Below are positions 1 to 3,703 of a stretch of 64,000 nt of DNA, one piece after another; positions within the stretch are counted from its first letter, which is position 1; every line of letters begins with the position of its first letter. The DNA lies in NCBI GenBank assembly GCA_001899065.1, contig MKUZ01000013.1:85923-149922 (forward strand). The letters run 5' to 3'. The translations under genes and the position numbers were made by a program. The notes beneath the pieces were generated by a model. The model ran no database searches. It was not told the DNA's origin and saw only the letters and a list, made by a program, of their open reading frames with translations. This DNA comes from Devosia sp. 66-22. Lineage in GTDB: Bacteria > Pseudomonadota > Alphaproteobacteria > Rhizobiales > Devosiaceae.

Positions 1-693
1 CGATTCGCTGCTGTCAGGCCGCCAGCGGCCCGCCGTGACGAGACTCGTCGCCGCGCCGGTCGGATTGAAGATCGACGCAAAATAGGTGCGCCACACCTCC
101 TCCATCGCATCCGATCGCGGCGCGTCCTGCTTGCGCATCCCCTCGCCGAACAGCAACCTCTCGCCATCCCATGCCGCTGAGCGGTAGGGCGTGAAGATCG
201 CCCATTGCATCGACGCAAAGCGCCGCACGAAGAACGGCGCGGTCCGCTCGAGCGTGTAATGGTCCGGCTCGAACCACGCCGCGAACCGCGCCTCGTCCTC
301 GCGAAAGCGGACGAACGCCTTCATCTTGTGGCTGTCGCGGCGCACTTCGCTCGCCAGCCGGTAGAGCTTGCTGATGTCGGGGTCCGACCGCACCTCGATC
401 AGCGTGCGGTCCTTCTGCAGCCGGAACAGCAACCGGTAGAGCAGTCCGAAGCGGATCGTCTCGCGATGGCAGATCGCGGCTTCCGCCAGCTCGATGAAGC
501 GTGGCGGCACGACGCCGACCGCGCGCGTCGCCACATCGGCCGGCCGCTCCTCCGCCTCGGCGAACAGATCGACAACGGCCGCGGGATCCTCCCAGATCAC
601 GTCCTCCGGATGCGTGCCCTGCAGCAGCAATGCCCGCGCCGCGAGCCGCCACTCGGCGAAATCGTTGAGTGCCGCGAGCCGCACACGCTTCAT
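1..693 (-). CDS. DUF4130 (UdgX-associated) putative DNA repair protein, partial
   Basis: The reading frame is open from an ATG at 693 to the left edge of the window (231 codons). It carries the DUF4130 signature: an LLYRLLFRLQKD block, a DSHKMKAFVRFREDEARFAAWFEP block and an APFFVRRFASMQWAIFTP block, ending in YFASIFNP. In this family the domain either stands alone or is fused to a UdgX-type uracil-DNA-binding domain and is encoded next to a radical SAM repair protein. Here the start overlaps the stop of the radical SAM remnant by one base (TGATG). After the FNP at about residue 210 the residues no longer resemble the family's usual ARLK...EMP continuation, so the end may be diverged or shifted. 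A role in SOS-linked base-damage repair is inferred from family and context. Confidence 0.75.
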   Translation of the reverse strand, partial: MKRVRLAALNDFAEWRLAARALLLQGTHPEDVIWEDPAAVVDLFAEAEERPADVATRAVGVVPPRFIELAEAAICHRETIRFGLLYRLLFRLQKDRTLIEVRSDPDISKLYRLASEVRRDSHKMKAFVRFREDEARFAAWFEPDHYTLERTAPFFVRRFASMQWAIFTPYRSAAWDGERLLFGEGMRKQDAPRSDAMEEVWRTYFASIFNPTGAATSLVTAGRWRPDSSES

Positions 694-827
694 CAGAACA
701 GGCTCAGTTGTTTCGGCTCGGGCGTCAGCCGCGCACGGAGTGTCTCGTCGCCGAGCGAGGCGCAGGACGCGTCGTACTTGGCCGCATCGGCAAGAATGGC
801 GAGCTTTCGCTGGAGGGTGAGGCGCAT
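693..827 (-). pseudogene. Radical SAM DNA repair protein remnant (44 codons, internal deletion)
   Basis: A 44-codon frame starts at ATG 827 and stops at 693-695. Its first part (KLAILADAAKYDASCAS) is the N-terminus of the putative DNA modification/repair radical SAM family that partners DUF4130/UdgX proteins. Its last part (LRARLTPEPKQLSLF) looks like the C-terminus of the same family. The normal protein is roughly 400 residues with a CxxxCxxC iron-sulfur site, and all of that is missing here. The simplest reading is an in-frame internal deletion that kept both ends, so translational coupling to the downstream gene is preserved. No radical SAM chemistry is possible from what is left. Confidence 0.7.
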
Positions 828-832
828 CGTTT

Positions 833-847
833 GTTCACTATATGTTC
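833..847 (-). promoter_or_regulatory. LexA (SOS) box upstream of the repair cassette
   Basis: The sequence is a perfect alphaproteobacterial LexA operator, GTTC-N7-GTTC on the plus strand (GAAC-N7-GAAC read in the gene direction), with arms at 833-836 and 844-847. It ends 6 bases before the ATG of the radical SAM remnant, so a repressor bound here would block the promoter or early elongation. LexA control of such repair cassettes is established for the phylum; the assignment here rests on the motif and its position. Confidence 0.75.
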
Positions 848-974: not shown

Positions 975-3107
975 TCAATTCACCGGCTGCGGCGCACCGA
1001 GATTGCGGTTCTGCGGCAGGGTCGGGTCATCGAACTTGCTCCGGCCGCCGGCCGAGTGGTCGGGGCTGAGCAGCGCGGCGAGGCCGACCAACTGCACGAA
1101 CTCGGCGCGGTAGCCATCGACATCGGCACCCTTGGCGCCATTGGCGAGGTCGGTGATTTGCTGCCAGGTGATCGTCTCGCCATAGGCCGAGCCCTTGAGC
1201 TTCTGGCCGAATGCGGCGACGGCAGCGGCAAAGCGCGGATCGTCTCCAGCCTTCATCGCATCGTCGAGCACCAGGTCGCGGCCGATCGGCATCTCGATGA
1301 GCTTGCTGGTATCCCCCAGCGGCGCCTTGTAGCGCATCTTGAGGAAGCCGAGCTCGTCATCGGCGGCGATCTCGTTGGCCTGCGGAGCCGAGCCGTAGCG
1401 CAGCGGGTCGTTGAGTTCCCCCCCCGAACCGACAGGAGTGATCTCGTAGAGCGCCGTTACAGTGTGGCCCGCACCGATCTCGCCGGCATCGACGGCGTCG
1501 TTGTTGAAATCCTCGCGGTTGAGCGCCCGGGTCTCGTAGCCGATCAGGCGGTACTCGGCGACCAAGGCCGGGTTGAACTCCACCTGGATCTTCACGTCCT
1601 TGGCGATCGTCACCATGTTGGCGCCGCCCTCGGTCACCAGCACCTTCTGCGCTTCGCGGAAGCTGTCGATGTAGCTGGCATTGCCGTTGCCGTTCTGGGC
1701 CAGGCTCTGCATCAGCGCGTCGTCGAGATTGCCCCGGCCGAAACCGATGACGCTGAGGAAGATCCCCTTGTCACGCTGCGTCTTGATGTAGGTCTTGAGA
1801 TCCTCGGGATCGTCCATGCCCACATTGAAGTCGCCGTCGGTCGCGAGGATCACACGGTTGTTGCCGTTCTCGAGCTTGTTCTCCTCGGCGAGCTGGTAAG
1901 CGAGCGCAATGCCCTCGGCGCCGGCGGTCGAACCACCCGCGTAGAGATTGTCGAGCGCCTTGAGGATCGTCGTGCGCCGACTGGCCTTGGTCGGCTCCAG
2001 CACTACGCCGGCCGAACCGGCATAGACCACGATCGACACCGTGTCGTCGTCCTGGAGCTGGTCGACCAAGAGGCCAAACGAGCGCTTGAGCAGCGGCAGC
2101 TTGTTGGGTTCGTCCATCGACCCCGAAGTGTCGATGAGGAACGTCAGATTCTGCGGCTGGCGCTCATCGGCCGGCGGCACATAGCCCTTGATGCCGATCT
2201 GCAGCAGCTCGGTCTTGGGGTTCCACGGCGTCGGGATGACCGTCATCGACGCCGAGAACGGCGTGTCCGCGCTGGTCGGCGCGGCGTAATCGTACGGGAA
2301 ATAGTTGATCAGCTCCTCGAGACGCACCGCGTCGGGGTCGGGCAGATAGCCGTCCTCGAGCAGGCTCCGCACATAGGTGTAGGACGCCGTGTCGACGTCG
2401 ATCGAGAAGGTCGAGACCCGCTCTTCCGACGTGATCTTCACGCGGTTCTCATCGAACGACTTGAACGTATCGCCCTCGACATAGAGCGGCTGCGTGGCGG
2501 CGTAGCCAGCGCCCGACATATCGGCGGTCGCCGACGGCGCGGCCTGGCGCATCGTTACCCGGCCCATCGGGGCGGGGGCCGCCTCGGGGAGAGTAACGAT
2601 CGCGTCGGACATCGCCTCGGCCTCGTCCGGCGCGTTGGCACCGGTCTCCGCCGCCATTTTGGGCTGCTCGACCGGAGCCGGCTTGGTCGTCTCCGGCGCC
2701 ACCGTGCTCAGCGTCTGCAGATTGACATCACTGTCAGTCTTCTCCACGCGCAGCGCGGGCTGCTCGACCGGCGTTTCCGTCGCCGCGATCGTCACGTCGT
2801 CGCCGCCCACCGGCGGCAGGGTGTCGATGGGATTGTTGGTCGCCACCATCTGCGAGCCGATCGGCAGCAGAACGAGCGCGGCCACCGCAGTGGCAGCGGG
2901 AACGCCAAGGCCGGCGCCCAGCTTCCAGCGGCTCAGCCAGCCGGCGGGCTTGGCGGCAGCGGCCTTCTTCTGGCCTGCCTGCGCAGCATCGAACGCCACC
3001 ATCGCGGCATTGAGCGCGAGCTTCTTCGCTTCGGGCGAAGGCTGCACGCTGCGCAGCGACTTCAGGGAAGAGAGAGCTTGGTCGGTCATCTTATCGTCCT
3101 CGTTCAT
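975..3107 (-). CDS. Membrane-anchored vWA-domain protein (YfbK-like), ECF sigma partner
   Basis: This 710-residue protein has one membrane helix at about residues 63-85, a Pro/Ala/Glu-rich linker, a YfbK-type vWA N-terminal block (YVEGDTFKSFDENRVKITSEERVSTFSIDVDTASY) and a vWA domain whose metal site starts FLIDTSGSMDEP at about residue 322. A C-terminal DUF3520-type region follows. The start at 3107 is chosen because its ATG overlaps the TGA of the sigma gene (ATGA), which indicates translational coupling; a second ATG lies at 3089. No classical zinc anti-sigma domain follows the sigma gene, so the N-terminal cytoplasmic stretch of this protein is a candidate for that role. That function is inference. 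Family members act at the envelope, but substrates are unknown. Confidence 0.88.
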   Translation of the reverse strand: MNEDDKMTDQALSSLKSLRSVQPSPEAKKLALNAAMVAFDAAQAGQKKAAAAKPAGWLSRWKLGAGLGVPAATAVAALVLLPIGSQMVATNNPIDTLPPVGGDDVTIAATETPVEQPALRVEKTDSDVNLQTLSTVAPETTKPAPVEQPKMAAETGANAPDEAEAMSDAIVTLPEAAPAPMGRVTMRQAAPSATADMSGAGYAATQPLYVEGDTFKSFDENRVKITSEERVSTFSIDVDTASYTYVRSLLEDGYLPDPDAVRLEELINYFPYDYAAPTSADTPFSASMTVIPTPWNPKTELLQIGIKGYVPPADERQPQNLTFLIDTSGSMDEPNKLPLLKRSFGLLVDQLQDDDTVSIVVYAGSAGVVLEPTKASRRTTILKALDNLYAGGSTAGAEGIALAYQLAEENKLENGNNRVILATDGDFNVGMDDPEDLKTYIKTQRDKGIFLSVIGFGRGNLDDALMQSLAQNGNGNASYIDSFREAQKVLVTEGGANMVTIAKDVKIQVEFNPALVAEYRLIGYETRALNREDFNNDAVDAGEIGAGHTVTALYEITPVGSGGELNDPLRYGSAPQANEIAADDELGFLKMRYKAPLGDTSKLIEMPIGRDLVLDDAMKAGDDPRFAAAVAAFGQKLKGSAYGETITWQQITDLANGAKGADVDGYRAEFVQLVGLAALLSPDHSAGGRSKFDDPTLPQNRNLGAPQPVN

Positions 3108-3703
3108 AGAAGGCCCCGCAGGGTCTTCTTGGCTTCGTGTATGTGCCAGGAGACTGTCGCCTCCTTGCACCCCATGATCTGCGCGGCCTCGGCGTGGTTC
3201 ATGTCCTCGGCGTAGACCAGCATGATCGCTTCGCGCTGTTTGTCGGGCAGCGCATTGACCCGTTCCCAGATTTCGCGGGCGGTGGTCGCCTCTTCCTGGC
3301 CGCCCGGATCGTCTTCCGGATGCACCAGCGTGAAGGCATCGATGGTCTTGTTCTTGCGCATCGACGAGCGCTGCATGTCGCGCACCATGTTGATGGTCAC
3401 GCGATAGAGCCAGCTCGTGAACGCCGAACGGCCATCGAAACTCTGGATTGCAGTGGCGAGCTTGATGCACACCTCCTGCGCAATGTCCTCGGCGTCCGAC
3501 TTCTTGCCCGTCCACTTGCAAGCGGTCCGGAAGATGAAGTCGTAGTTCGCCTCGATGAGCTGGCTGAACGCCAGCCGGTCACCCGACTTGGCTCGCTCGA
3601 CCAGCGAGTTATTCCGTTCGGTCGCCGCCGACCGAACACTGATTTCAGATTGCGGCGTCAAAACCAGGGACCCATCCACTCCAAGAAACCTTTGAATTGG
3701 CAT
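3104..3703 (-). CDS. ECF RNA polymerase sigma factor (RpoE-like)
   Basis: A 199-residue sigma-70 family protein of the extracytoplasmic-function class. Region 2 runs at about residues 35-105 (FRTACKWTGKKSDAEDIAQEVCIKL, then SAFTSWLYRVTINMVRD), and region 4 at about 140-199 with a helix-turn-helix (AEAAQIMGCKEATVSWHIHEAKKTL). Regions 1.1 and 3 are absent, as expected for ECF factors. The N-terminal extension of about 25 residues is longer than usual, so translation may begin at a downstream GTG or TTG. The gene overlaps the vWA gene by 4 bases, so the two products are probably made together and act in one signalling unit. Confidence 0.92.
   Translation of the reverse strand: MPIQRFLGVDGSLVLTPQSEISVRSAATERNNSLVERAKSGDRLAFSQLIEANYDFIFRTACKWTGKKSDAEDIAQEVCIKLATAIQSFDGRSAFTSWLYRVTINMVRDMQRSSMRKNKTIDAFTLVHPEDDPGGQEEATTAREIWERVNALPDKQREAIMLVYAEDMNHAEAAQIMGCKEATVSWHIHEAKKTLRGLL

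Follow-up and report, generated by a model that had tools for sequence, protein, structure and literature searches.

Does a predicted DNA-repair gene that has shrunk to 44 codons still serve its cell, or is the short frame only what a deletion left behind? This question is raised by one end of the window (the whole stretch of 64,000 nucleotides that was analysed, from Devosia sp. 66-22, here genome G000), where such a frame, referred to below as the stub, stands between a LexA box and a DUF4130 gene. The features concerned are as follows.

1..60, minus strand: tail without clear homology after ...SIFNP, with neither a conserved DUF4130 end nor a UdgX domain
61..693, minus strand: DUF4130 (TIGR03915) codons 1-211, with 40 of the 40 conserved columns of that part kept
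693..758, minus strand: last codons and TGA of the former radical SAM gene, by homology to the end of the G008 gene
693..827, minus strand: 44-codon frame (the stub), with its ATG at 827 and its stop TGA at 695-693
756..761, minus strand: deletion junction GCCTCG (codons 23-24, Ala-Ser), from comparison with relatives
756..827, minus strand: codons 1-24 of the former TIGR03916 radical SAM gene, by homology to TIGR03916 and to G008
833..847, minus strand: LexA box GAACATATAGTGAAC (GAAC-N7-GAAC), a box also found before the intact genes of relatives
975..3107, minus strand: gene of what is presumably a vWA-domain protein, the synteny anchor upstream of the cassette
3104..3703, minus strand: gene that we take to encode a sigma factor, a synteny anchor used with the vWA gene for the tree

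We consider it probable, at roughly three chances in four, that the locus is a recently broken, dispensable SOS cassette and that the stub is a by-product of its breakage. An earlier note on this DNA, made from the letters alone, had put forward decay of the cassette as one of its options, and this is now the likeliest reading, given the intact orthologues at the locus, the truncation of DUF4130 as well and the lack of a UdgX match over its cut-off.

By sequence likeness, both ends of the stub are confirmed as belonging to TIGR03916, a family that we take to be the same as COG4277. The frame of 44 codons opens at the ATG at 827, as had been claimed, and it holds no stop and no frameshift; a start further upstream, at ATG 866 (a 57-codon frame), is disfavoured, as the frame would then include the LexA box and conservation places the start at 827. 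The resemblance of both ends to a radical SAM repair family, which the earlier note had inferred, was reproduced by alignment. Model positions 1-24 of TIGR03916 correspond to stub residues 5-28 (25.9 bits, E 4.8e-6 in the NCBIfam library, below the curated cut-off of 343.5), the first 28 residues are 89% identical to the N-terminus of the intact orthologue in G008, the nearest relative found, and 16 of the last 22 residues (73%) are identical to the end of that protein. The C-terminus of the stub was also matched weakly in other genomes, with a best E of 0.0014 when the stub was used as query against the 136 family genomes. The stub has a single cysteine and lacks CxxxCxxC, presumably the iron-sulfur motif of TIGR03916, which reads CVYDCAYC in the intact G008 protein.

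Compared with the 410 codons of the G008 gene, 366 codons (1,098 bases) are missing in frame, the CxxxCxxC region among them, and the proposed in-frame loss of the catalytic middle is thereby borne out (about 1.1 kb). What the locus still has in common with TIGR03916 rSAM_link_UDG genes (putative DNA modification/repair radical SAM protein) is the first 24 model positions, the gene ending, the position in the chromosome next to the same genes, the LexA box and the overlap with DUF4130. In relatives, a similar short stretch lies on both flanks of the piece that was lost (GCGTCG at both in G012), which suits slippage between short repeats. The loss would probably have taken place between two short matching GC-rich stretches, and it would be in frame by chance.

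The order of sigma gene, vWA gene, LexA box, radical SAM gene and DUF4130-UdgX gene is common to G008 and G012, and in both of them the radical SAM gene is intact at the same locus, where the earlier note had recommended that sister species be searched. Within the genus, 11 of 19 genomes have a TIGR03916 match, ten of them over the cut-off, the eleventh being the stub itself. A near-full-length radical SAM gene is present on the same fragment in 79 of 80 named DUF4130 loci, usually directly upstream; these are the best 80 of 110 by likeness to the DUF4130 of the window, and the set is therefore biased to intact cassettes. The radical SAM gene lies further off in L090 and L096, and L147 is cut by a contig end. 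The nearest named loci belong to 'Hyphomicrobiales bacterium PMG_193' (L069) and 'Devosia sp.' (L070). A tree of ten loci was built from the two neighbouring proteins, and it separates G000 and the intact G008 from the rest with a support of 100. The ancestral cassette would have consisted of a LexA box, followed by a TIGR03916 radical SAM gene overlapping a DUF4130-UdgX fusion gene by one base, and the 1.1 kb would have been lost on the branch of G000 itself, after its split from G008. A common origin of the stub and of the radical SAM losses in G003 and G006 was considered and is unsupported: G000 pairs with the intact G008, and the pairing of G003 with G006 in the same tree has a support of 39.

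Two further claims, that a perfect LexA box and a 1-base overlap with the DUF4130 gene had been kept, proved correct, the box at 847..833 and the overlap as the single base shared by the stub stop and the DUF4130 ATG at 693. An exact box starts at most 45 nt before the radical SAM start in 56 of the 78 named loci with enough upstream sequence, and 22 of the 78 have no exact box from -150 to +30 of that start. Genus loci with an intact gene carry the box in ten cases out of ten, at -17 to -21 in nine and at -35 in G014 (G008 and G012 are counted in both sets). Over the same named loci the box occurs 81 times in 3,023,814 strand-bases, those 56 included, and by this count its presence before the radical SAM gene is more than chance. 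According to the accessible part of PMC8565304, GAAC-N7-GAAC (GTTC-N7-GTTC) belongs to a motif class reported for Alphaproteobacteria, and a two-gene COG1573-COG4277 operon with a uracil-DNA glycosylase is under SOS control. A -10-like TATAGT lies inside the box of the stub (842..837), and in G006 a TTGACA stands 17 bases before a TAAAGT that is inside the LexA box; the box would overlap the -10 element, and the transcript may be nearly leaderless. We predict that the locus is under LexA control, that LexA would still govern the short transcript and that the 44-codon frame may be translated. The 1-base overlap is also the commonest state elsewhere, with 34 of 79 radical SAM/DUF4130 pairs showing it and nine more showing a 4-base overlap, on starts picked mechanically.

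Within the window there is a second lesion, absent from the earlier note. Genomes of the genus normally encode, downstream, a protein of about 490 residues in which DUF4130 is fused to UdgX (TIGR03914), the latter forming the C-terminal half. In G000 the DUF4130 frame runs to the window edge, and its clear homology ends after codon 211 (window 61). The frame scores 162.7 bits, over the TIGR03915 cut-off of 112.25, but is incomplete: it covers positions 5-220 of 243 in the TIGR03915 model and 4-125 of 146 in the Pfam model (DUF4130, SAM_7_link_chp), so that TIGR03915 positions 221-243 are missing, and, unlike the gene in relatives, it has no UdgX fusion. Fifty-one columns are conserved at 95% or more in the named DUF4130 loci (again the best 80 of 110); up to codon 211 none of these is lost, and 2 of the 11 beyond it coincide in the alignment, although that tail is not homologous. 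For comparison, the number kept is 51 in the intact G012, 47-50 in six further named loci, 28 in G006 and 11 in G003. No UdgX match over the cut-off of 189.95 was found in the G000 assembly; contig C17 carries two uracil-glycosylase matches that score lower (153.6 and 29.3 bits). We suggest that this was the later of the two losses, and that it would have removed the end of DUF4130 together with UdgX and joined the remainder to a rearranged tRNA-Met region. An IS-element end as the cause of the break is unsupported, as the 62-base query (window 1-62) had no second copy in G000, the next best match having an E of 0.01 over 40 bases.

The tRNA-Met region is itself unusual. Just left of window position 1 (L014 3848-3923), the 60-base tail is followed by 43 N and then by the first 33 nt of a tRNA-Met(CAT) in the opposite orientation, which faces the truncated DUF4130. 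In G008 the tRNA-Met comes immediately after UdgX, in the same orientation, and the sequence beyond it is found on contig C22 in G000. As 33 nt and 43 N make 76, close to the full tRNA length of 77, the 43 N may stand for no more than the missing part of an essential tRNA-Met; a search of G000 with the tRNA region of G008 gave no second match better than 76%.

Because the two losses are 0.7 kb apart and both within 0.8 kb of the N gap, they could be a fault of the assembly, with the radical SAM middle and the UdgX part present in the cell but dropped from the draft, and the flanks joined by gap closing. The window is part of contig C13 of a 31-contig draft, the 43 N are only 0.76 kb from the junction, and the displaced continuation of the tRNA-Met on another contig fits such a fault. 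We nevertheless regard it as improbable. The G000 assembly, which is listed as 99.96% complete, contains no other TIGR03916 match in addition to lacking an over-cut-off UdgX. The junction is internal to a contig, and the stretch of about six bases where it falls is too short to mislead a k-mer assembler. Furthermore, partial losses of the cassette away from contig ends also occur in G006 and on a long contig of G184.

Some of the evidence speaks against simple decay. The stub is still open, and its first 24 codons differ from those of G008 by seven synonymous codons and one non-synonymous codon; between the intact genes of G008 and G012 the same codons show 12 synonymous and two non-synonymous differences. 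The last 20 codons of the stub show three and six against G008, much the same as the difference between G008 and G012 there (four and seven). For DUF4130 codons 1-211, omega is low on the branch of G000, at 0.14 (0.065-0.29) vs 0.10 (0.04-0.20) on the G008 branch, these being counting estimates from three sequences each with a bootstrap over codons. The low omega and the 7:1 codon differences point to either a recent break or a remaining constraint: most of the branch of G000 would have passed under constraint, and either the break is recent or the constraint continues.

The 44 residues might form a mini-protein with a function of its own under SOS control, as the earlier note had also suggested. 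The open frame, the SOS box and the near-unchanged N-terminal 24 residues are in keeping with this, but the N-terminus is conserved between the intact G008 and G012 too, which indicates that the likeness of the stub was inherited. The stub has no Pfam match, and in NCBIfam it matches its old family and otherwise NF052446 below threshold (14 bits vs a cut-off of 40). It is moreover confined, in our searches, to a single genome. The 136 family genomes, searched with the stub sequence, yielded no further in-frame stub (one other short frame with the stub N-terminus, G014:C49, ends at its contig end and was not counted), and neither did the 397-genome order sample, searched with the family HMM, or the 80 named DUF4130 loci. 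G354 (contig end) and G434 and G492 (split frames) were not counted as stubs. Some other genomes gave weak TIGR03916 matches to model positions 44-98; these lie in frames of 324-544 residues, probably belong to different radical SAM proteins and were left out. A new function is thus unsupported and very improbable. The stub, without the cysteine cluster and nearly all other parts of the enzyme, most likely does nothing.

Broken cassettes of other kinds were found in four genomes. G184 (L173 2370-2773, in the 397-genome order sample) has a LexA box, radical SAM residues 3-43 with an internal TAG and then the UdgX end in another frame. In G127 (L177 2760-3201, in the family) there are fragments of DUF4130 and UdgX that do not share a reading frame; no radical SAM remnant was found in the stretch examined, nor was there an exact LexA box 400 nt or less from the DUF4130 fragment. 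In G003 and G006, neither of which showed a radical SAM remnant, the DUF4130 ATG comes straight after the LexA box, 17 and 19 nt from the start of the box. These four resemble G000 in their partial loss, and three of them (G003, G006 and G184) in having kept the LexA box. They differ from it in their end points and, in G184, by a stop and a frame change, and none of them is an in-frame stub with two ends. Therefore, partial losses of the cassette are recurrent, and the two-ended in-frame stub was seen only in G000.

These losses also bear on whether DUF4130 works without its partner. Among the 136 family genomes, 56 have an over-cut-off radical SAM match, and each of these has a DUF4130 match as well. 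The DUF4130 match passes its cut-off in 55 of them; the exception, in G010, is cut by a contig end. A DUF4130 match is present in 60 of the 136, and in the four without an over-cut-off radical SAM (G000, G003, G006 and G127) DUF4130 is truncated or eroded, so that no complete DUF4130 without an over-cut-off radical SAM was found in these genomes. It seems from these sequences that DUF4130 loses its use once the radical SAM gene is gone, whereas UdgX is kept to a degree.

This pattern is relevant to the possibility that the stub was kept as a leader, with ribosomes needing to pass through the overlapping frame in order to start on DUF4130, and that DUF4130, though truncated, remains functional by itself or with a different partner. 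The loss was in frame, the box and the overlap were kept, DUF4130 retains all 40 conserved columns of codons 1-211 at a low omega, and in G003 and G006 the downstream frame likewise stayed attached to the promoter. However, DUF4130 has lost its conserved end and UdgX, none of the 136 genomes has a complete DUF4130 without an over-cut-off radical SAM match, DUF4130 has drifted more than UdgX in G006, and a loss is in frame with a chance of one in three. We consider this reading unlikely. The earlier suggestion that coupling keeps the short frame alive is conceivable but weakened, since the downstream gene now lacks both the UdgX half and the conserved DUF4130 end. That the stub is a selected leader, SOS-induced and nearly leaderless, which would only carry ribosomes into a truncated DUF4130 working without radical SAM partner and UdgX, is quite improbable.

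Under decay of a dispensable cassette, which we prefer, comparing the broken copies is more useful than the stub itself, which is most likely a fossil. The absence, in the 136 genomes, of a complete DUF4130 without an over-cut-off radical SAM gene, and a UdgX that would have outlived the radical SAM gene in G006, lead us to predict that the radical SAM protein works together with DUF4130, and that UdgX is able to function independently. For the radical SAM-DUF4130 part, the accessible parts of the open-access literature contained only predictions (PMC3765255, PMC8565304), and no mention of the family names TIGR03916 and TIGR03915 was found in open-access literature. G006 offers a natural dissection of the cassette. 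There, without a radical SAM gene, the box precedes a DUF4130-UdgX gene (L179 119-1522) in which DUF4130 has lost 23 of the 51 conserved columns and UdgX keeps GEQPG, KRRIH and HPSYLLR, which are UdgX motifs according to the accessible part of PMC10359453. Omega in G006, a counting estimate of the same kind from three sequences with a bootstrap over codons, is 0.78 (0.52-1.36) for DUF4130 and 0.39 (0.24-0.65) for UdgX, with slightly overlapping intervals, and the intact branches, at 0.15-0.19, lie below both values.
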